This document shows positions 1,115-20,551 of a stretch of 33,935 bases of DNA, one piece after another; the stretch's first letter is position 1, and every line of letters begins with the position of its first letter. A model generated the notes under the pieces. The model ran no database searches. It had not been told where the DNA came from and saw only the letters and a program-made list of their open reading frames with translations. Made by a program: the position numbers and the translations under genes. Origin of the DNA: an uncultured Bacilli bacterium (GTDB taxonomy: Bacteria > Bacillota_I > Bacilli_A > RF39 > UBA660); contig CALVIV010000014.1 in assembly GCA_944331935.1 (NCBI GenBank), positions 1 through 33,935 of the forward strand, written 5' to 3'.

Positions 1115-1153
1115 AAAAAAAAGAAGAAGTTACTCTTCATTAGTACTTTCTTC
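1115..1153 (-). terminator. Possible gyrA terminator
   Basis: On the minus strand the end of gyrA can form an imperfect stem (GAAGAAAGT pairing with ACTTCTTC, one bulged A), followed by a run of T (A run at 1115-1122 on the plus strand). It overlaps the gyrA stop codon. It is the only terminator-like signal between gyrA and the palindrome array. The pairing is weak, so the call is tentative. Confidence 0.35.
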
Positions 1154-3574
1154 TTCATCTTTATCCACAACTGTCACTGTTGCAACTTTTTGATCATCTT
1201 TTAAATGAATTAACCTAACTCCTTGAGTAGCCCTCTTCAAAGTAGATATCTGTTCCATTGGCATTCTCATTATAACACCACTATCTGTAATAATCATTAC
1301 ATCTTTTTCATCACTTTCATCAGCATTTATACAATTTAAAGAAACCATAGAACCATTTTTATCAGTCATATTTAAAGCTTTAACACCTTTACTACCTCTA
1401 TGAGTTAACCTATATTCATTTATATCAGTTTTCTTACCATATCCGTTCTCAGTAACAATTAATACCTCTTGATCTCCAGTTACAACATTAGCACCAACAA
1501 CGACACTTCCATCAAGGTCAATTCCTTTAACTCCAGATGTACCACGACCCATAGAACGTATTTCAGTTTCCACAAATCTTACCATTCTTCCATTGCTAGC
1601 ACCGATTATTACTTCATCTTCACCAGTAGTTTTATCCACAGCTATTAACTCATCGTTATCTTTAAGAACAATTGCAATCTTTCCACTCTTACGGATATTG
1701 TCAAATTCCTTTATTTCCGTACGTTTTACAAGACCATTTCTGGTAACAAAAAGTAAATATTTATAGTTTTCCACAGAAGGGTCTAAGCATACTATCGAAC
1801 TTATGTTCTCGCCGTTTTCTAGTGATAATAAATTTACCACAGGTAGACCTTTAGATTGACGACTATACTCTGGAATCTCATATCCTTTAAGTCTGTATAC
1901 TCTTCCTTTATTAGAGAAGAATAAGATATAATCATGTGTTTTCATTGAAATTAAATGTTTAACAAAATCCTCTTCATTCGTAGCCATTCCTTTAATTCCA
2001 ATGCCACCACGATTTTGACTCTTATAAGTATCTGCTCTTAATCTCTTTATATAACCTTTATTAGTTAATGTTACAATAACATCTTCTACAGGAATTAAAG
2101 ACTCATCTTCAATATACTCAATCGCTGTCATATCAATATTAGTTCTTCTGTCATCTCCATATTTATCTTTAATCTCTAGAAGCTCTGTCTTAATAACATT
2201 AAGAATCTTCGCATCACTACTTAAAATATCTTTTAAATTAGCAATTAATTCAAGTAAATCCTTAAGTTCATTTTCTATTTTTTCTCTTTCTAATCCAGTT
2301 AATCTTCTAAGTCTCATCTCTAATATAGCATTCGCTTGTATTTCAGTTAAGCCAAACTTACTCATTAAACCACTTCTAGCCTCATCATCAGACTTAGAAC
2401 CTCTAATTAACTTAATTACTTCATCAATGTTATCTAAGGCAATCTTTAAACCTTCTAAAATATGAACACGTTTTTCTGCATTATCTAAATCAAATTGCGT
2501 TCTTCTTATAATAACTTCCCTTTGGAAATCAATATATTTTGCAATAATGTCCTTTAATCCTAAAGTTCTAGGAACACCTTGGTCTAACATCAAGAAAATT
2601 ATTCCATAACTAGTTTGAAACTGTGTATGTTTATATAATTTATTCAATACAACTTGAGCATTGGCATCCTTCTTCAATGTAATAGTAATCTTAATACCAT
2701 CTTTTAAATCAGAATGATAATCAGAAATACCTTCAATTGTCTTATTATGAACAAGTTCTGCTACTTTGTTTTTTAACTCAGATGTATTAACACCATAAGG
2801 AACTTCATCAATAATTATATATTGCCTTCCATTCTTTTCTTCTATCTGGGCTTTACTTCTAATAGTAATAGTTCCTCTACCTGTTTCATAAGCCTTTTTA
2901 ATACCACTATTACCAAGAATAGATGCTCCAGTAGGAAAATCCGGTCCCTTAATATATTGCATTAAGCCATCTACATCAATATCAGGATTGTCAATATAAG
3001 CAACACAACCATCAATTACCTCTTTTAAATTATGAGGAGGAATATTTGTTGCCATACCAACAGCAATACCAGTAGTACCATTAACTAAAATATTAGGAAA
3101 CCTTGAAGGTAAAACTACAGGTTCTTTTGAAGATTCATCAAAGTTAGGAGTAAAATCTACTGTATTTTTATTAATATTTCTTAAAAGTTCAAGAGATATT
3201 TTTGAAAGTCTTGACTCAGTATAACGCATAGCTGCAGCCCCATAACCTTCAATATTACCAAAATTACCATGACCATCAATTAACATATATCGATATGAAA
3301 AATCTTGAGCCATTCTAACCATTGCTTCGTAAATAGAACTATCACCATGAGGATGATAATTACCCATAACCTCACCAACAGTCTTAGCACTTTTTCTGTG
3401 AGGCTTATCAGGTGTATAACCAGATTCAAACATAGAATATAGAATTCTACGATGAACAGGCTTTAAACCATCTCTTAAATCAGGAATTGCCCTTGCTGTA
3501 ATAACACTCATTGAATAATCAAGAAAAGAGTCTTTTACTTCTTTTACTATATTATTTTGTTCTAATCTATCCAT
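1130..3574 (-). CDS. gyrA: DNA gyrase subunit A
   Basis: GyrA is the DNA-cleaving and rejoining subunit of gyrase, the A2B2 topoisomerase that introduces negative supercoils using ATP. The 814-residue product has the normal length. The N-terminal part shows [16 protein letters not shown], the [12 protein letters not shown] region (the quinolone-determining region, with serine at the E. coli Ser83 position) and the catalytic tyrosine in AMRYTESR near residue 118. The C-terminal half is a beta-pinwheel with a GyrA-box-like QNRGGIG. An upstream in-frame GTG at 3580 lies only two bases from the Shine-Dalgarno AGGAGGT (3583-3589), whereas ATG at 3574 is eight bases away, so I use the ATG. The gyrB stop lies within this ribosome-binding region, so the two are probably co-transcribed and translationally coupled. 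Confidence 0.97.
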
Positions 3575-3587
3575 AACCACTTACCTC

Positions 3588-6726: not shown

Positions 6727-6751
6727 AAAAAAAGCAATTATTTTGCTTTTT
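6727..6751 (-). terminator. comK terminator
   Basis: A nine-base-pair stem AAAAAGCAA/TTGCTTTTT encloses a five-base loop and is followed by a T run on the minus strand. The TAA stop of the comK homologue lies in the loop region, so the last codons of the gene form one arm of the hairpin. Confidence 0.8.
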
Positions 6752-7196
6752 CTTTTCTGCTTCTTATTATAGATTCTAATCTACTCGCTCTCATTACCTG
6801 ATTATTAAAGGAATTATAAGATATATCAACAGTAAGTACCTTACCATTTTTAAATTCTACCTGTGTTTTAGTACTAGTAAGTTTACTATAACTCTTAATA
6901 TTTTTTAAAGATATCCAACTACAGTCATCATCTATTGGACTAGTAGTAGGAAAAAATATTAAATTCTTAGTATCTTCAACCATAACAGGAACTTTATAAG
7001 AACTGTTTAGTATTTCCCCTGCTCCCGTTTTTCTTCCTTCATAAGAACTTCCAAAGTACCTACAACTATAATCAACTATTTCTAAAGGTTTCATCTTAAC
7101 CTCATAATTACAGTCATCTTCAACTACAACTGAATCCCATAAATCTCCCCCAGGCATAATCGCAAGTGTCTCATCATTAATTTCATAATCTTTCAC
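6738..7196 (-). CDS. comK: ComK family competence transcription factor
   Basis: ComK is the master activator of DNA-uptake (competence) genes in B. subtilis and binds paired AT-boxes. I recognise the family from long conserved stretches: MKPLEIVDYSCRYFGSSYEG (residues 35-54), CSWISL (92-97) and ISYNSFNNQV (125-134). The GTG at 7196 is chosen because AAGGGGG lies eight bases upstream; the earlier in-frame TTG at 7220 has no ribosome-binding site. The product is then 152 residues, against 192 for B. subtilis ComK. The missing part is the C-terminal tail, which in B. subtilis carries the FMLYP motif bound by MecA for ClpCP degradation. It has its own promoter and terminator and lies between dnaN and recF, where yaaA is usual. 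Whether it still governs competence is inference. Confidence 0.88.
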   Translation of the reverse strand: MKDYEINDETLAIMPGGDLWDSVVVEDDCNYEVKMKPLEIVDYSCRYFGSSYEGRKTGAGEILNSSYKVPVMVEDTKNLIFFPTTSPIDDDCSWISLKNIKSYSKLTSTKTQVEFKNGKVLTVDISYNSFNNQVMRASRLESIIRSRKEKAK

Positions 7197-7247
7197 AAAA
7201 ATTTCCCCCTTCAAAAGCAATTACTTGCTTTGCTATCAGTCTACTAT

Positions 7248-8601: not shown

Positions 8602-9975
8602 CTATGGTTTCAAATCATTTTCAAGTTTCTTAATTATCCCTGCTAAATCACTATTATTTTTAATCTCTTGTTCAATTTTCTCAACGGAATGCATTACTGT
8701 TGAATGGTCTTTTCCTCCAAACTCTGTCCCAATTTTAGGAAAAGATTCACTAGTAAGTTTTCTACATAAATACATAGCAATTTGTCTAGGAAAAGCAATG
8801 TTACTACTTCTTTTCTTACTTCTTATATCTTCAACTGATATCTGAAAATACTCTGCCACTATCTTTTGAATTCTTGTTATATCATTCTTTTCACTAAGTC
8901 CTTTACTAATAAAGTCTTTCAAAGCCTCAATCGCAAGGTTAATATCTATCTTCGCTCCTCCCATAATAGTTGAATAAGCAACAAGTCTTGTAATAGAGCC
9001 TTCTAGTTGCCTTACATCACTTCCCATATTAGAAGCAATATATTCAATAACATCTTCTGGTATTTCAGCTTCAAAGTTACCTGCTATTATTTTTTTACGG
9101 AGTATTTCTTTTCTAAGCTCAAAATCAGGTGGATAAATATTAACAGTAAGTCCCCAACAGAATCTTGTTCTAAGACGTTCCTCTAATAGTTTTAAATCAT
9201 TAGGAGACCTATCTGAAGATATAATTATCTGTTTAGAATCATTATAAAGATTAGTAAAGGTGTGGAAAAACTCTTGTTGTGTTTGGGTCGCTCCTCCAAG
9301 AAACTGAATATCATCAATTATTAAGACATCAATATTTCTATATTTATTTTTAAAGAAGTCTATATAACTAAAGTTAGTCCCCTTCTCGTCTTTTTTATTA
9401 ATACCAACAAAATCATCTCTAAACTGGTCACTAGTAACATAAAGAACTCTTCTATTAGAATTTTCCACAATATAATTCCCTATCGCATGCATTAAATGTG
9501 TCTTTCCTAGTCCACTATTACCATATATAAATAAAGGATTATACATTTTACCAGGATTTTCCGCAACTGATAAGGCTGCCGCTTGGGCAAATTTATTACT
9601 ATTACCTACTATAAAATTCTCAAAATTATATTTAGGATTAAGATTAGATTGATTTTTAAAAGACTTAGGAACACCCTCCTCTATTCTTTCCTCTTCTTCT
9701 TTCTCTTTTTCCACTTTTCTGTTATTAATTTCATCTGGCAACAAAAACTCTAATTCAAAATTTGTTCCTGTTACCTTATTTAAAGCCATTCTAATAAGTT
9801 CAAAGTAATTATCAGATAAATGTTTTTTATGAATAGACATAGGTACTTCAATAATCGCTACCCCATTATCTAAACTAATAAGTTTAACATCACTAAACCA
9901 AGTGTCGAAAGCTAGGGATGAAAGTTCATCTTTTATCTCTTTTAGAACATTTTGCCATAGAATTTCGACATTCAC
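8602..9975 (-). CDS. dnaA: Chromosomal replication initiator DnaA
   Basis: DnaA is the AAA+ protein that binds DnaA boxes, opens oriC and loads the helicase. With the GTG start at 9975 it is 457 residues, close to B. subtilis (446). Domain I begins ILWQNVLKEIKDEL. A charged linker (about 85-100) precedes the AAA+ domain with Walker A GNSGLGKT (152-159) and Walker B LIIDDIQF (about 218-225). Domain IV ends with the DNA-binding signature FGGKDHSTVMHSVEKI. An in-frame ATG at 10107 would add 44 residues running through DnaA boxes, but it lacks a ribosome-binding site and matches no DnaA N-terminus. The GTG has GGAGGTGAT at ideal distance. It is transcribed away from rpmH, as is usual. Confidence 0.97.
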   Translation of the reverse strand: MNVEILWQNVLKEIKDELSSLAFDTWFSDVKLISLDNGVAIIEVPMSIHKKHLSDNYFELIRMALNKVTGTNFELEFLLPDEINNRKVEKEKEEEERIEEGVPKSFKNQSNLNPKYNFENFIVGNSNKFAQAAALSVAENPGKMYNPLFIYGNSGLGKTHLMHAIGNYIVENSNRRVLYVTSDQFRDDFVGINKKDEKGTNFSYIDFFKNKYRNIDVLIIDDIQFLGGATQTQQEFFHTFTNLYNDSKQIIISSDRSPNDLKLLEERLRTRFCWGLTVNIYPPDFELRKEILRKKIIAGNFEAEIPEDVIEYIASNMGSDVRQLEGSITRLVAYSTIMGGAKIDINLAIEALKDFISKGLSEKNDITRIQKIVAEYFQISVEDIRSKKRSSNIAFPRQIAMYLCRKLTSESFPKIGTEFGGKDHSTVMHSVEKIEQEIKNNSDLAGIIKKLENDLKP

Positions 9976-10008
9976 CCTATCACCTCCCACCTGAATTCCT
10001 AAATTACC

Positions 10009-10014
10009 ATTATA
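10009..10014 (-). promoter_or_regulatory. Candidate dnaA promoter -10
   Basis: TATAAT on the minus strand lies about 35 bases before the dnaA GTG start. The -35 region is poor (CTTTTT). A DnaA box at 10027-10035 lies between the -10 and -35 positions, so autorepression by DnaA is plausible. A second TATAAT at 10147-10152 is an alternative. Confidence 0.4.
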
Positions 10015-10214
10015 ATACTCTAAATTTGTGGAAAAAGGAATAGGTATTTTTAATTTTTTAGTTTTCCACAATTTTTCGACAAATTTCTCCACAACTAAAA
10101 TCGACATATATCAACAAAAAACAGAGTTTTCCACATTTTCCACAAAATTATAATTCACAAGTTAATATCTGTTTTCCACATCATGTGGAAATAGTGGAAA
10201 AAGTAAAAGAAATA

Positions 10215-14771: not shown

Positions 14772-16628
14772 ATGAATTATGAAGTAATTGTTGTAGGAGG
14801 AGGACATGCTGGTATTGAAGCCTGTTTATCATGTGCAAGACTTAAGCACAAGACTCTTTTAGTAACAGGAAACATTGATAATATTGCCGATATGCCCTGT
14901 AATCCATCAATTGGAGGACCTGCTAAAGGAATAGTAGTAAGAGAAATAGATGCCTTAGGTGGCGAAATGGCTAAAAATACTGATAAGAGTTCTTTACAAA
15001 TGAAAATGTTAAATACTAAAAAAGGTCCTGCCGTTCGTGCTTTACGTGCCCAAGCTGATAAAGTTATCTATAAAAAGGAAATGTTAAAGACCTTAAAAAA
15101 TCAAGATAACTTAGATATTAAAGAAGGACTAGTAAAAGAACTTATTATAAAAGATAATAAAGTAGGTGGAGTCATTTTAGAAAATGGTGAAGAAATAACA
15201 TCTAAAGCCGTTATCTTAACAACCGGAACATATTTAAAAGGAACAATATTAGTAGGTGATAAGAAAACAGCAGGAGGTCCTCATGGTGAAAAAGCTAGTA
15301 ACTATTTAAGCCCATTCTTAAAGAAGCTAGGCTTTAATATTTTAAGACTAAAAACAGGAACGCCTCCTCGTATTGAAAAAGCAAGTGTTGATTTTTCTAA
15401 AATGCAAGAAGAACTTGGTAGTAGAGAAGATATAACTTTCTCATATGATAACACTACCGCTCTTGCCTATAAGTACCAATTACCTTGTTATTTAATCTAC
15501 ACTAACGATTTAACTCATAAAATAATTAAAGAACATCTAAACGAATCTAGTATGTATGGTGGTTATGTCGAAGGAGTAGGACCAAGATACTGTCCATCTA
15601 TTGAAGATAAAGTAGTAAGATTTAGTGATAAAGAACGTCATCAACTCTTCTTAGAGCCTGAAAGTATTTATTATGATGATTTGTACCTTCAAGGATTTTC
15701 TACAAGTATGCCTCACTATGTTCAAGAACAAATGGTCCATAGTCTATCTGGGTTAGAAAATGCTAAGATATTAAAATATGCTTATGCCATAGAGTATGAT
15801 GCCATTGACTCAAGACAAATAAAACCAACTCTTGAAACCAAGATAATTGAAAATCTTTATACAGCCGGCCAAATAAATGGTACAAGTGGTTATGAAGAAG
15901 CAGCAGGACAAGGCTTAATCGCTGGAATTAATGCTTCCTTAAAACTAGAAAATAAAAAGCCCTTAATTCTAAAACGTAATGAAGCATATATTGGTGTTCT
16001 AATTGATGACTTAGTAACTAAAGGAGTAAAAGACCCATATCGTCTTTTAACATCCCGTGCAGAATACCGTCTTCTTTTAAGAGATGATAATGCTGATTTA
16101 AGACTTAGAGAATATGGCCATGAAATAGGATTAATAAATGATGATATTTATAATAAGTTTCTAAAGAAAAAGCAAGATATTGAAGAATTAACAAATATTT
16201 TAAAAGAAACTAAAATTACTCCTAAAAAAGAAATAAACGATATCTTAATAAAGTTAAACACATCTCCTTTAAAAGATAGTATTACTTTATATGACTTATT
16301 AAAAAGACCAGAACTATCTATAGAAGACTTAACTAATTTTAAAGAGTTAAATTACTCTAAAGAAGTTCTAAAAGAAGTAGAGATTAATATAAAATATGAA
16401 GGCTATATTAAAAAATCTCTTGAAGAAGCTAAGAAGATGTTAGAGTTAGAAGATAAAACTTTACCAGAAGATATTAACTATCAAGATATTCCTAATATTG
16501 CCAGTGAAGCGAAAGAGAAGCTAGACAAGATTAGACCAGTAACTTTGGGTCAAGCAAGTAGAATTAGTGGTGTTAATCCTGCTGATATCGCTATTATCTC
16601 TGTTTATTTAAAGAAAAGAGGAGAATAA
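14772..16628 (+). CDS. mnmG: tRNA uridine-5-carboxymethylaminomethyl modification enzyme MnmG
   Basis: MnmG (GidA) is the FAD-dependent partner of MnmE in U34 modification. The 618 residues fit the family. The FAD-binding Rossmann motif is GGGHAGIEA (residues 9-17). Other conserved stretches are CNPSIGGPAKG, GHEIG near residue 455 and the tRNA-binding C-terminal RISGVNPADIAIISVYLKKRG. The cysteines of CNPSIGG and RYCPS are present. The ribosome-binding site before ATG 14772 is only GTGAT. The stop overlaps the start of rsmG by one base (TAATG), so the two are translationally coupled, as in many Bacilli. Confidence 0.97.
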   Translation: MNYEVIVVGGGHAGIEACLSCARLKHKTLLVTGNIDNIADMPCNPSIGGPAKGIVVREIDALGGEMAKNTDKSSLQMKMLNTKKGPAVRALRAQADKVIYKKEMLKTLKNQDNLDIKEGLVKELIIKDNKVGGVILENGEEITSKAVILTTGTYLKGTILVGDKKTAGGPHGEKASNYLSPFLKKLGFNILRLKTGTPPRIEKASVDFSKMQEELGSREDITFSYDNTTALAYKYQLPCYLIYTNDLTHKIIKEHLNESSMYGGYVEGVGPRYCPSIEDKVVRFSDKERHQLFLEPESIYYDDLYLQGFSTSMPHYVQEQMVHSLSGLENAKILKYAYAIEYDAIDSRQIKPTLETKIIENLYTAGQINGTSGYEEAAGQGLIAGINASLKLENKKPLILKRNEAYIGVLIDDLVTKGVKDPYRLLTSRAEYRLLLRDDNADLRLREYGHEIGLINDDIYNKFLKKKQDIEELTNILKETKITPKKEINDILIKLNTSPLKDSITLYDLLKRPELSIEDLTNFKELNYSKEVLKEVEINIKYEGYIKKSLEEAKKMLELEDKTLPEDINYQDIPNIASEAKEKLDKIRPVTLGQASRISGVNPADIAIISVYLKKRGE

Positions 16629-17275
16629 TGACTAAGGATGAATTTGTAAAAGAAGTAGAAAAACTAGGTTTAAAGGTAACTGATGAAGAGTTAAAAAAGT
16701 TAGATATTATTTATAATACTTTAATAGAAACAAATAAAACTATGAACTTAACAAGAATAACAGAAGAAAGTGATGTCTATTTAAAACATTTCTATGATAG
16801 TCTAACTCTAGCCAAAGTATATGACCTATCAAAAGCTAAAACTCTATGTGATATTGGAACGGGAGCCGGCTTCCCAGGTCTAGTCTTAAAAATATTCTAT
16901 CCTAACTTAGAAATAACTTTAGTAGATTCTCTTTTAAAAAGAGTAAATTATCTTAATAACTTAATAGATAAATTACATCTAATTGGTATAAAAGCCTATC
17001 ATAATCGTGCTGAAGAATTAATAAAAGCAGGAAAAAAATTTGATGTTGTAACTGCAAGAGCTGTAGCAAACTTACCAAAACTACTATTATGGACAATGCC
17101 TTTAGTAAATAAAAATGGTAGTTTTCTTGCCATGAAAGGAAATGTTACTGAAGAATTAGAACTATCTAAAGATATTCTGAAAAAACATAACTGGTATATT
17201 AATAATAAAGAGATATTTACTTTACCAAATAAGGAAGATGTAAGAACAATTTTAGAAATTAAAAATAAAGCCTAG
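16628..17275 (+). CDS. rsmG: 16S rRNA (guanine-N7)-methyltransferase RsmG
   Basis: RsmG (GidB) methylates G527 of 16S rRNA using S-adenosylmethionine; loss in other bacteria gives low-level streptomycin resistance. The 215-residue protein has the SAM-binding motif DIGTGAGFPGLVLKI, then VDSLLKRVNYLN and the conserved VVTARAVANLPKLLLW. GAGGAG four to five bases before the ATG is formed by the last codons of mnmG. A promoter for noc lies about 20 bases after its stop, so noc can be transcribed independently. Confidence 0.96.
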   Translation: MTKDEFVKEVEKLGLKVTDEELKKLDIIYNTLIETNKTMNLTRITEESDVYLKHFYDSLTLAKVYDLSKAKTLCDIGTGAGFPGLVLKIFYPNLEITLVDSLLKRVNYLNNLIDKLHLIGIKAYHNRAEELIKAGKKFDVVTARAVANLPKLLLWTMPLVNKNGSFLAMKGNVTEELELSKDILKKHNWYINNKEIFTLPNKEDVRTILEIKNKA

Positions 17276-17301: not shown

Positions 17302-17346
17302 GAGATTAGTAGAAAAATAAAAGAATAGAATAAAGAGGGTATGCAT

Positions 17347-18789
17347 ATGGATAATAAAGAAAACGAAGTAGTATATTTACATTTAGATGATATAATTCCA
17401 AATAGATTTCAACCAAGACAAGTATTTGATGAAAAGGCTTTAAAAGAGTTAGCAGTATCTATCAAAGAACATGGTGTAATTCAACCAATTATTGTTCGTA
17501 ACATTGGCAATAAGTACGAAATAATAGCAGGAGAACGTCGTTATAAAGCCTCAGCTATGGCAGGACTTACAACTATACCAGCTATTATTCGTAATTTGGA
17601 TGATAAAGAAAGTAGCAAAGTCGCTCTTCTTGAAAACTTACAACGTAAGAACTTAAACCCAATCGAAGAAGCAAAAACATATCAAAAAATTCTTGAACTT
17701 GACCAAATGACTCAAGAAGAACTTGCTAAAACTATGGGTAAAAGTCAAAGTGCTGTTGCCAATAAACTACGTCTTTTATCTTTAACAGATGAAGTCCAAG
17801 ATGCTCTTTTAAAAGACCAAATCTCAGAACGTCATGCTAGAGCCTTATTAAATGCCAAAGACCCTGAGACTCAAAAACAATTATTAAAAGAAGTTATAGA
17901 TAAGAAAATGACTGTAAGAGAATTAGAGGAAAAAATAAATCCTAAAGAAGAAATAACAAAAAGTGATATAGATGCCTTATTAAATCCATCACCTGTTAGT
18001 GCTACTATGCCTCAAACAAACTCTTTAAATGTTCAAACTAATAGTAATAATACTAATCCTAATAATGATTTTAATACAAGTGTAGGAATTGATTATTCAA
18101 CTCCTCCAAAATTTATTGATTACGATGTACCAAATATAAATGATAACTTAGAAAGTACTGCTAATAAATCTATTGATATCAATGCTATAAAAGATAATGC
18201 TAAAGATATTAATTTAAATGAACCAGTTGATAGTAATAAATCTAATCCTGTAAATGATTTTTTCAATGTTCCTAAAGTTGAAGAAAAAAATGATGAATCT
18301 GCAAAAGACTTTAAGTTCTTTACTCCAATCGAAGAAGAAACTAAAGAAGAGAAACCAAAACAAGACTCATCAGTATCCATGTTTGATGCTCCAGCCCCAA
18401 CTAATGCTCCTTTCATCAATGATAACCCTTTTAACTTAGGATCTGAAACTAAAGATTTAAAAGATTCTACTAGTACATCTATGGATACTTTATTAGCAGG
18501 GGTAAATAATAATGATAATAAACCTAAAGACCAACCAACTGTCCCTAGTATAAATACCTTTAATAACCCATTCGCTAATAATCCTATTTTTAGCGACAAT
18601 GTAAAAGCGAGTGAAGAACAACAAAAAGCTAATAAGCCAAAATATACTCTAAATGAATCTATAAATCTAGTAAGAGAAACTCTAAAGAAAATAGAAGAGT
18701 CAGGCTTTAAAGTAGATAGTGAAGAAATGGACCTTGTTAATAACTATCAGATAACTATTAAAATATCTAAAGAAAATAATAACAGCTAA
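17347..18789 (+). CDS. noc: Nucleoid occlusion protein Noc with long disordered linker
   Basis: Noc is a ParB-family CTPase that binds NBS sites and stops FtsZ assembling over DNA. Residues 1-200 are the ParB/Noc core: IIPNRFQPR, the CTP-binding GERRYKAS (62-69), ENLQRKNLNP (96-105) and the helix-turn-helix MGKSQSAVANKLRLL. At the four positions that separate Noc from ParB it has Q134, K140, S145 and R162, three Noc-like. The C-terminal dimerisation segment (about 432-480, ESINLVRETLKKIEESGFKV) matches Noc. Between them lies about 230 residues of N/D/S/P/K-rich low complexity, so the protein is 480 residues against about 283 in B. subtilis. The N-terminal amphipathic membrane helix of B. subtilis Noc is absent. 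ATG 17347 is chosen over 17341 because GAGGG lies seven bases upstream. The locus rsmG-noc-parA-parB is canonical. Confidence 0.92.
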   Translation: MDNKENEVVYLHLDDIIPNRFQPRQVFDEKALKELAVSIKEHGVIQPIIVRNIGNKYEIIAGERRYKASAMAGLTTIPAIIRNLDDKESSKVALLENLQRKNLNPIEEAKTYQKILELDQMTQEELAKTMGKSQSAVANKLRLLSLTDEVQDALLKDQISERHARALLNAKDPETQKQLLKEVIDKKMTVRELEEKINPKEEITKSDIDALLNPSPVSATMPQTNSLNVQTNSNNTNPNNDFNTSVGIDYSTPPKFIDYDVPNINDNLESTANKSIDINAIKDNAKDINLNEPVDSNKSNPVNDFFNVPKVEEKNDESAKDFKFFTPIEEETKEEKPKQDSSVSMFDAPAPTNAPFINDNPFNLGSETKDLKDSTSTSMDTLLAGVNNNDNKPKDQPTVPSINTFNNPFANNPIFSDNVKASEEQQKANKPKYTLNESINLVRETLKKIEESGFKVDSEEMDLVNNYQITIKISKENNNS

Positions 18790-18885: not shown

Positions 18886-19674
18886 ATGGCAAAGGTAATT
18901 TCTTTAGTTAATCAAAAAGGTGGAGTAGGAAAGACAACAACAAGTATTAACCTTTCTGCCTCATTAGCATTCCTTGGTAAAAAAGTATTATTAATAGACT
19001 TAGACCCTCAAGGTAATACTACAACAGGAGTAGGAATAAATAAGGGGGATATAGATGTAAGTGTATATGATGTTCTAACAAATAAATGCAGTACCAAAGA
19101 TGCCATGATTAAAACTAAATATAAAAAACTATATGTACTACCTGCAACAATCAATTTAGCAGGTCTTGATATTGAACTACTTGAAAAAAGTCAGAGTGAA
19201 CCTGGTTTTGCAAAAGGAGCCCAATTAAAATATCATCTAAAAGAGTTAGAAGATGAAAATTTTGATTTTATAATAATAGATTGTCCCCCATCATTAGGAT
19301 TAATTACAACAAATGCCCTAACAGCAAGTGACTCTGTTATTATTCCAGTTCAATGTGAGTTCTTTGCTCTAGAAGGAATAATGCAATTACTAAATACAAT
19401 AAGACTTGCTCAAAAACAATTAAATCCTAATCTAGATATAGAAGGAGTCTTACTAACGATGTTAGATTCAAGAACTAACTTAGGTTTTGAAGTAGTAGAT
19501 GATATTAGAAAGTTTTTCAAAGAAAAGGTATATAATACTATTATACCAAGACTAATTAGATTAACAGAAGCTCCATCCCATGGAGAACCTATAATAGTAT
19601 ATGACCCTAAGAGTAAAGGCTCAGAAGCTTATCTAAACTTAGCAAAGGAAGTGATTGATAGAAATGGAAAATAA
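18886..19674 (+). CDS. parA: Chromosome-partitioning ATPase ParA (Soj)
   Basis: ParA/Soj is a deviant Walker ATPase that binds DNA non-specifically as an ATP dimer. It helps ParB segregate origins and in B. subtilis also regulates DnaA. The 262-residue product has the deviant Walker A KGGVGKTTTS at residues 11-20, LLIDLDPQGN (Walker A') and FIIIDCPPSLGLITTNAL (Walker B). It has the short N-terminus of chromosomal Soj rather than the long one of plasmid ParA. GAGAGTGAT precedes the ATG. It overlaps parB by about 11 bases, so the two proteins are likely made together. Confidence 0.97.
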   Translation: MAKVISLVNQKGGVGKTTTSINLSASLAFLGKKVLLIDLDPQGNTTTGVGINKGDIDVSVYDVLTNKCSTKDAMIKTKYKKLYVLPATINLAGLDIELLEKSQSEPGFAKGAQLKYHLKELEDENFDFIIIDCPPSLGLITTNALTASDSVIIPVQCEFFALEGIMQLLNTIRLAQKQLNPNLDIEGVLLTMLDSRTNLGFEVVDDIRKFFKEKVYNTIIPRLIRLTEAPSHGEPIIVYDPKSKGSEAYLNLAKEVIDRNGK

Positions 19675-20551
19675 AAGGCGTGCTTTAGGAAAAGGTCTTG
19701 AAGAATTATTTAATAGTGAACAATTAAATATTGCCGATGTAGAAGAAAAGATAATAAATAACACTCCAAAAGACCAAATAGTAAATCTAAATCTAGATGA
19801 ATTAAGAAGTAACCCTTATCAACCTCGTAAAAACTTTGATGAAGAAAGTCTAAATGAATTAGCTTCATCTATCAAAGAGCATGGAGTATTTCAACCTATA
19901 ATTGCTAAAAAAAGTATTAAAGGCTATGAAATAATAGCAGGAGAACGTCGTGTTAAAGCTTCAAGACTAGCAGGCTTAACTACCATACCAGCCATCATTA
20001 AAGACTTTACTGATGAAGAAATGATGGAAATAGCTTTACTAGAAAACTTACAAAGAGAAAACTTAAGTGCTATGGAAGAAGCAGAAGCCTATAATGCCTT
20101 AAAGACTAGACTTAATCTAACACAAGAAGAACTTGCTAAGAAAGTAGGTAAATCAAGAAGTCATATTACTAATATGCTAGGACTTTTAACTTTGCCTAAT
20201 GAAATAAAAGACGAAGTAGTAAAAGGTGAACTAAGTATGGGACATGCTAGAGTCCTAAGTAAGCTTGAAGATAAAGAGCAAGCTATAAGTCTAGCAGAAA
20301 AGACAATAAATGAAAATCTAAGTGTTAGAAGACTAGAAGAGTTAACCAATTCTAAAGAAGAATATCATCGTAAAAAAGAAATAACACCTCATAAATCAAA
20401 AGCTAAAGATAATGAATACTCTTACTTAGAAAGTGATTTATGTGAAAAACTAGGTACAAAAGTAAAGATAAGAAATAATAAACTAGAAATAAGTTTTACA
20501 AATGCTAATGACTTAACAAGAATACTTGAAATAATGCATTTAGATAAATAA
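19664..20551 (+). CDS. parB: Chromosome-partitioning protein ParB (Spo0J)
   Basis: ParB binds parS, hydrolyses CTP, spreads as a sliding clamp and recruits SMC. The 295 residues begin with the ParA-stimulating RRALGKGLEELF, followed by the CTP-binding core GERRVKAS (93-100), ENLQRENLS (127-135), the helix-turn-helix VGKSRSHITNMLGLL and SMGHARVL. At the specificity positions it has R165, M171, T176 and G193, the ParB pattern at the first and last. This differs from Noc in the same window. ATG 19664 is preferred to TTG 19655; GGAAGTGAT lies suitably upstream. No parS site was noticed inside this gene, unlike B. subtilis spo0J; the sites lie in the array at 1-1098. Confidence 0.96.
   Translation: MENKRRALGKGLEELFNSEQLNIADVEEKIINNTPKDQIVNLNLDELRSNPYQPRKNFDEESLNELASSIKEHGVFQPIIAKKSIKGYEIIAGERRVKASRLAGLTTIPAIIKDFTDEEMMEIALLENLQRENLSAMEEAEAYNALKTRLNLTQEELAKKVGKSRSHITNMLGLLTLPNEIKDEVVKGELSMGHARVLSKLEDKEQAISLAEKTINENLSVRRLEELTNSKEEYHRKKEITPHKSKAKDNEYSYLESDLCEKLGTKVKIRNNKLEISFTNANDLTRILEIMHLDK

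Follow-up and report, generated by a model that had tools for sequence, protein, structure and literature searches.

A Noc protein with a long acidic linker and no N-terminal membrane helix, and its predicted binding sites interleaved with parS beside the replication origin, in a family of uncultured gut Bacilli

In textbooks, Noc exemplifies a ParB duplicate that came to police cell division once it had gained a membrane helix and recognition of a new DNA site. The stretch of 33,935 nucleotides analysed here (the window) comes from an uncultured member of the Bacilli and encodes a Noc that retains the residues of NBS specificity, has no N-terminal membrane helix and carries a disordered linker between its DNA-binding and C-terminal domains. 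Exact NBS alternate with parS in a tandem array beside gyrA, and this combination recurs across the family of the window genome (f1). The named relatives of the window are MAGs recovered from animal guts, among them Candidatus Onthousia and further uncultured Bacilli/Tenericutes. We propose, with a probability of roughly 0.6, that this Noc is a second centromere-binding clamp, which would act at the origin through its linker. The relevant features of the window are as follows.

1–1122, unstranded: composite centromere-like tandem array, 127-bp unit × 8.8, continuing on contig C1 of the same genome
3–18, unstranded: NBS TATTTCCCGGGAAATA, exact, the first of nine
130–145, 257–272, 384–399, 515–530, 642–657, 773–788, 900–915 and 1026–1041, unstranded: further exact NBS
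60–75, also 187–202, unstranded: parS TGTTTCACGTGAAACA, exact
314–329, 441–456, 572–587, 699–714, 830–845, 956–971 and 1083–1098, unstranded: parS variants, mostly TGTTCCACGTGAAACA
1130–3580, reverse strand: gyrA, its 3' end abutting the array
8602–10107, reverse strand: dnaA, the origin marker
16628–17275, forward strand: rsmG, the upstream neighbour of noc as in Bacillus subtilis
17347–18789 (coding to 18786), forward strand: noc-type gene, 480 aa, start ATG 17347, alternative ATG 17341
18886–19674, forward strand: parA (soj)
19664–20551, forward strand: parB (spo0J), of normal length, with the ParA-contact segment LGKGLEELF

The array unit consists of an NBS, 57 bp, a parS and 70 bp, so that sites alternate every 57/70 bp. 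All nine NBS of the window are exact. The genome as a whole contains 15 exact NBS 14-mers, against ~0.004 expected from its base composition: nine at C14:4–1040, five at C1:94716–95241 and a single satellite at C1:88031, 6.7 kb from the array. The five sites at the end of contig C1 probably belong to the same array, split there by the assembly; as MAG contigs break within the array, copy numbers are to be read as minima. A search reaching two mismatches found no NBS with one or two mismatches elsewhere in the genome; scattered degenerate sites are therefore ruled out within that limit. Since an alignment of array units selects them by their exact NBS, the NBS conservation of 1.0 that it returns is circular, and an unbiased scan allowing up to four mismatches was used instead. 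Over five arrays it recovered 30/30 exact NBS and 9/29 exact parS, which makes NBS the better-kept element. In one relative (G008) the whole array lies on one contig, between gyrA and tadA and ~17 kb from noc, with a satellite at the rsmI–pth junction.

Clustered NBS are present in most members of the genus, and the array recurs across it. Exact NBS were not found in three genus members that have Noc (G005, G009 and G028), a gap that may reflect the loss of tandem arrays from draft assemblies. Within the family, NBS occur in the recF–pth segment of every genome whose segment was read, usually together with parS in the gyrA–tadA gap; family-wide, the recognition sites are thus clustered next to oriC, as is characteristic of a centromere. 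Periods of 127, 126, 115, 105 and 66 bp and NBS–parS distances of 57, 60, 38 and 27 bp indicate that geometry drifts within a layout that is otherwise retained. In an evenly drawn sample of 295 genomes of the phylum, 11 of which belong to the family (the window genome and ten others), exact NBS were found in the recF–pth segment of all ten other family members. The corresponding count for Noc-bearing genomes of six other families was 0/40, most of them having parS there and several of the regions being shortened by contig ends. The strict composite NBS/parS pattern was detected in 9 of 395 genomes of the class, eight of the nine being family members. Noc-bearing genomes of other families instead carry dispersed imperfect NBS (up to three mismatches), the excess over the reversed pattern being clearest in G092 (51 vs 8) and G041 (24 vs 4) and small in several others; G008 gave 11 vs 10.

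Several variations on this layout were observed. Satellite NBS recur in or after rsmI (G000:C1:88031 (L096), L098:13449 and L186:7180, at the rsmI–pth junction) and inside dnaX (L171, L174, L180, L182, L183 and L185). An array of nine exact NBS adjoining gyrA in G019 (L184:66–678) shows mostly alternating 74/83-bp spacing and has no parS between the sites. Origin-side NBS/parS accompany a short-linker Noc in G266 of family f19 (L175), so that origin-side NBS and the long linker are separable traits. In two other genera an exact NBS lies ~0.3 kb upstream of noc (L115:3958–3971 and G100:C23:43576), where autoregulation is possible.

The protein itself is divided as follows.

17347–17937, forward strand: folded core, residues 1–197, ParB N-terminal CTPase fold and HTH (profile matches, AF2 model)
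17938–18639, forward strand: disordered acidic linker, residues 198–431, 234 aa (FoldIndex, AF2)
18106–18123, forward strand: linker motif PKFIDY, residues 254–259, family pattern [KR]F[IV][ND][YF]
18205–18213, forward strand: linker motif DIN, residues 287–289, family pattern [AST]x[DE]I[NKHD]
18310–18327, forward strand: linker motif FKFFTP, residues 322–327
18562–18591, forward strand: linker motif NNPFANNPIF, residues 406–415
18640–18786, forward strand: C-terminal domain, residues 432–480, Noc-like, predicted helix-strand-strand (TIGR04285 match, AF2)

These boundaries agree with those that an earlier note, made from the letters of the window, had placed near residue 200 and at ~432. The C-terminal domain may also be delimited as residues 432–474, its helix-strand-strand unit lying at 435–474. 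The AlphaFold2 (AF2) model has pLDDT values of 80–90 in the core and 83–88 in the C-terminal unit, and comparison of the model with the PDB put Geobacillus Noc first (7nfu; 56% identity, core). The protein matches the ParB_N and HTH_ParB domains, and it matches TIGR04285 in two stretches separated by the linker (298.1 bits, E 4.8e-89). This score is below the curated cut-off of 315 bits, as are those of many short-linker Nocs of other families, and we attribute the shortfall to the model and attach no biological weight to it. A tree built from 89 cores gave the Noc/ParB split an SH-aLRT support of 98, with the window protein on the Noc side; the Nocs of the family form one branch (support 99), which also includes L089. 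With B. subtilis and Geobacillus Noc the window protein further shares the rsmG–noc–parA–parB gene order, the CTP-site segments and the Noc-type C-terminal domain.

Both segments of the CTP site, GERRYKA and ENLQR, are intact, nearly all of their positions being invariant in 34 family proteins, and predict CTP clamping. The NBS specificity set comprises Q173, K179 and/or K184, and R201 in Caulobacter numbering, one lysine being sufficient (PMC7383237). The window protein has S at the position equivalent to 184, and its residues Q134, K140 and R162, which it shares with B. subtilis and Geobacillus Noc and which are invariant in the 34 proteins, make up the set and predict NBS binding; the adjacent ParB has the parS-type residues R and G at its specificity positions. 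As far as sequence can tell, the protein is therefore a true Noc by descent and predicted DNA specificity, which is distinct from a demonstrated nucleoid-occlusion protein.

ParB-family clamps load at their sites and then slide, and Noc does so with CTP (PMC8429893). In the mechanism that we propose, Noc would load at the exact NBS of the array, ~7–8 kb from dnaA, and ParB at the interleaved parS; both would be expected to close on CTP and to slide over the same origin-proximal DNA, as predicted from the interleaving of the sites and the sliding of the clamps. Noc without a membrane helix would not itself tether this DNA to the membrane. Its acidic arm of ~230 residues, one per subunit between the DNA-binding and dimerisation domains, would instead display a ladder of conserved motifs, and many clamps at one locus would form a dense multivalent platform at the origin. 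Such a platform could recruit a client for segregation, replication control or origin-positioned division control, with ParA, SMC, DnaA or a division protein as candidates. We infer recruitment through the linker, which is best read as a recruiting arm. The more specific picture of a bipartite centromere, in which two orthogonal CTP-clamp systems, ParB–parS and Noc–NBS, are interleaved at fixed spacing and Noc has been remodelled from a division guard that binds the membrane into a long-armed origin scaffold that gathers clients, has in our estimation about an even chance of being right.

Tandem partition sites are familiar from plasmids, F sopC being an example. As in the ParB–parS (Spo0J) centromere and F sopC, a protein of the CTP-clamp family would here load at an origin-side array of sites from which it spreads along DNA. 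Unlike in the ParB–parS centromere, two orthogonal protein–site pairs share the array, and the LGKGL-type N-terminal segment that contacts and stimulates ParA, present in the neighbouring ParB, is absent from Noc. In the open-access literature searched, we met no report of an array that interleaves loading sites for two orthogonal clamps. Noc of Staphylococcus aureus, a member of the same Noc clade that restrains replication initiation, may be a precedent for a function at the origin; it differs in having 41 dispersed loci, with no interleaved parS/NBS array reported there (PMC5540599). In archaeal ParB of the pNOB8 type, a long linker binds ParA (PMC7333895). The resemblance lies in a long linker between two ParB domains that serves as a protein-binding arm, putatively so in the window Noc, whose C-terminal domain is unrelated to that of the archaeal protein.

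Two of the features that define Noc of B. subtilis as an occlusion protein are lacking here: the membrane helix, which that protein requires for membrane binding and occlusion (PMC4331003, PMC8429893), and NBS that are scattered along the chromosome but missing around the terminus. Therefore, the B. subtilis occlusion model does not transfer. The earlier note had concluded that this Noc needs some other way to the membrane or to an effect on division; this is not supported, given that helix-less Nocs are common and NBS are origin-confined. Since NBS are confined to the parS/NBS array of the origin and not dispersed, it is preferable to start from a role at the centromere. The composite array, which the note did not connect with Noc, is the more surprising feature of the window. 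Among the alternatives, the one that survives best, doubtful as we hold it to be, is that Noc inhibits division near the origin only, its linker motifs binding a divisome protein in the manner of SlmA, which acts directly on FtsZ, and not by membrane crowding. Origin-only NBS could serve such a function if the origins label places that division has to avoid, and the Noc ancestry in the tree and the conserved aromatic linker motifs are in line with it, as is the finding that Spo0J acts together with Noc in B. subtilis to block Z rings at mid-cell (PMC6852036). Against it, occlusion of the classical kind relies on NBS distributed along much of the chromosome, the terminus excepted (PMC7383237; PMC5540599), a layout absent here, and no FtsZ-binding motif was identified in the window Noc. 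The C-terminal domain of MinC was not found in the 28 Onthousia genomes searched (G000–G027), a gap in known spatial control that would favour division control by Noc; it was equally missing from the other Bacilli of that search, so its absence says little, and MinC as a partner system is uninformative.

Returning to recruitment through the linker, the earlier note had described this region as rich in N, D, S, P and K and suggested that it might make multivalent contacts. The composition holds (N 17%, D 10%, P 10%, S 9%, K 9%; net charge −17), and a conserved, disordered, motif-bearing linker could make contacts of this kind. Disorder prediction, which the note had called for, gave negative FoldIndex values over the entire linker and pLDDT <50 across most of residues 219–405. 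Conservation of linker length, likewise to be checked in homologues, amounts to 209–233 aligned residues within the genus and 94–275 aa in 34 family proteins, whose linkers are all acidic (net −10 to −34) and contain neither W nor C. In the phylum sample all 11 family members have long Noc frames (369–611 aa), and frames of other families measure 254–306 aa except in G266 (365), where the extra length lies upstream of the start codon and the C-terminal tail is short. Long linkers were found only in the family clade (support 99). By these comparisons the linker is specific to the window's family, with motifs conserved across its genera, and its 234 residues in the window protein contrast with the short linkers of other Bacilli Nocs. 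Two Noc proteins, L087 (694 aa) and L117 (728 aa), have linkers of roughly at least 450 residues, one of them extremely N-rich.

Short motifs are kept across genera that share only ~50% overall identity. The pattern [KR]F[IV][ND][YF] occurs in 29 of the 34 linkers (shuffled maximum 1), as does [AST]x[DE]I[NKHD] (shuffled mean 5.3, maximum 13); [FYS][KR][FY][FILV] occurs in 25 (maximum 4), L[DES]xL[LI] in 19 (maximum 5) and [DE]x[YF]FxxP in 14 (maximum 2). As the patterns were picked after viewing the alignment, the shuffles show non-randomness, not function. The NPF-like motifs pointed out earlier are real (NNPFANNPIF), although their conservation is mainly confined to the genus. These motif islands, strongly above shuffles, argue against the linker being a passive spacer that enlarges the clamp, with the array merely raising loading near the origin and no client recruited. 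That reading, which we rate as unlikely, draws on the faster evolution of the linker (dN/dS 0.17–0.45, against 0.02–0.13 for the core, i.e. ~5-fold higher) and on the mosaic nature of its middle part. The mosaic segment corresponds to window positions 18207–18456 (gene nt 861–1110): in L033, L035, L055 and L061 the core is 99% and the mid-linker 72% identical, which suggests allele exchange or rapid change among close relatives.

Could the linker instead reach the membrane by another route, through a hidden amphipathic segment or a membrane-protein partner, so that Noc works like that of B. subtilis? AF2 places some low-confidence short helices in the linker, which also has aromatic motifs such as FKFF. 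We nevertheless consider this very unlikely: no sliding segment of the linker matches the B. subtilis helix in both hydrophobic moment and positive charge, which rules out a helix of that kind hidden there; the linker is net acidic in 34/34 proteins, arguing against direct electrostatic binding to the membrane; and NBS are not dispersed. The inference of an alternative membrane route is thus weakened, although a membrane-protein partner might provide one.

The N-terminus bears on the absence of the helix. The open reading frame (17341–18789, forward strand) has in-frame ATGs at 17341 and 17347, and the latter is favoured by the fitting 7-nt spacing to a Shine-Dalgarno-like element.

17332–17339, forward strand: Shine-Dalgarno-like AAAGAGGG, 7 nt before ATG 17347

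An in-frame TAG stop lies at 17326–17328. The conserved IIPNRFQPR begins at residue 16, leaving a lead of ~15 residues, MDNKENEVVYLHLDD, close to the ~13 given in the earlier note. This lead is acidic (net charge −4) and non-amphipathic, with a HeliQuest-style score of −1.15; in B. subtilis Noc the first 14 residues score +1.10. In 53 distinct homologues a stop precedes the conserved core by 17–33 codons, so that a longer start is impossible in the homologues read; the upstream in-frame extension with a helix that the note had named as decisive was found in none of them. A wrong start codon or gene-fusion artefact that conceals a helix-bearing lead, for which the two in-frame ATGs could be adduced, is practically excluded by these stops and by a start context common to the whole genus.

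The note was right about the missing helix in this protein, and wrong in implying that it is unique. An amphipathic helix was predicted in all Nocs examined by Adams et al. (PMC4331003), a generality which, judged by predicted leads, is not borne out by the wider sample here. HMM-based extraction of leads showed that those of families f11 and f6 (MFNIFSRDD..., MGLFDFLG...) resemble the known helix and that f8 has a shorter version; those of f9, f13, f19 and Clostridium zeae comprise only ~9–11 residues and are helix-free, which rules out a loss unique to the window Noc. When the tree is rooted with ParB, the families that have the helix group together (85), and those without it diverge around them as deep branches. 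A single gain of the helix would fit this tree, which has moderate support, long branches and one Clostridium sampled. As helix-less Nocs are common and deep-branching, the membrane helix of B. subtilis may be a derived state; the tree leaves room for NBS recognition being older than the helix, in which case the membrane-binding Noc of Bacillus would be derived. In a large family of gut bacteria Noc would thus have kept its site specificity, without a helix and with a motif-bearing arm, its sites drawn into the centromere. The two innovations of Noc, the new DNA site and the membrane helix, appear separable on the evidence of this family, and both the order of events in Noc evolution and the role of Noc at the origin become directly testable.

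No Rfam match was found in the window. A third ParB-like protein is encoded elsewhere in the genome (G000:C28:11017–11388 (L003); 317-aa frame, 38% identity over the N domain). Within the window, a ComK homologue (PF06338, 165 bits) is located at 6738–7220, between recF and dnaN, beside the origin.
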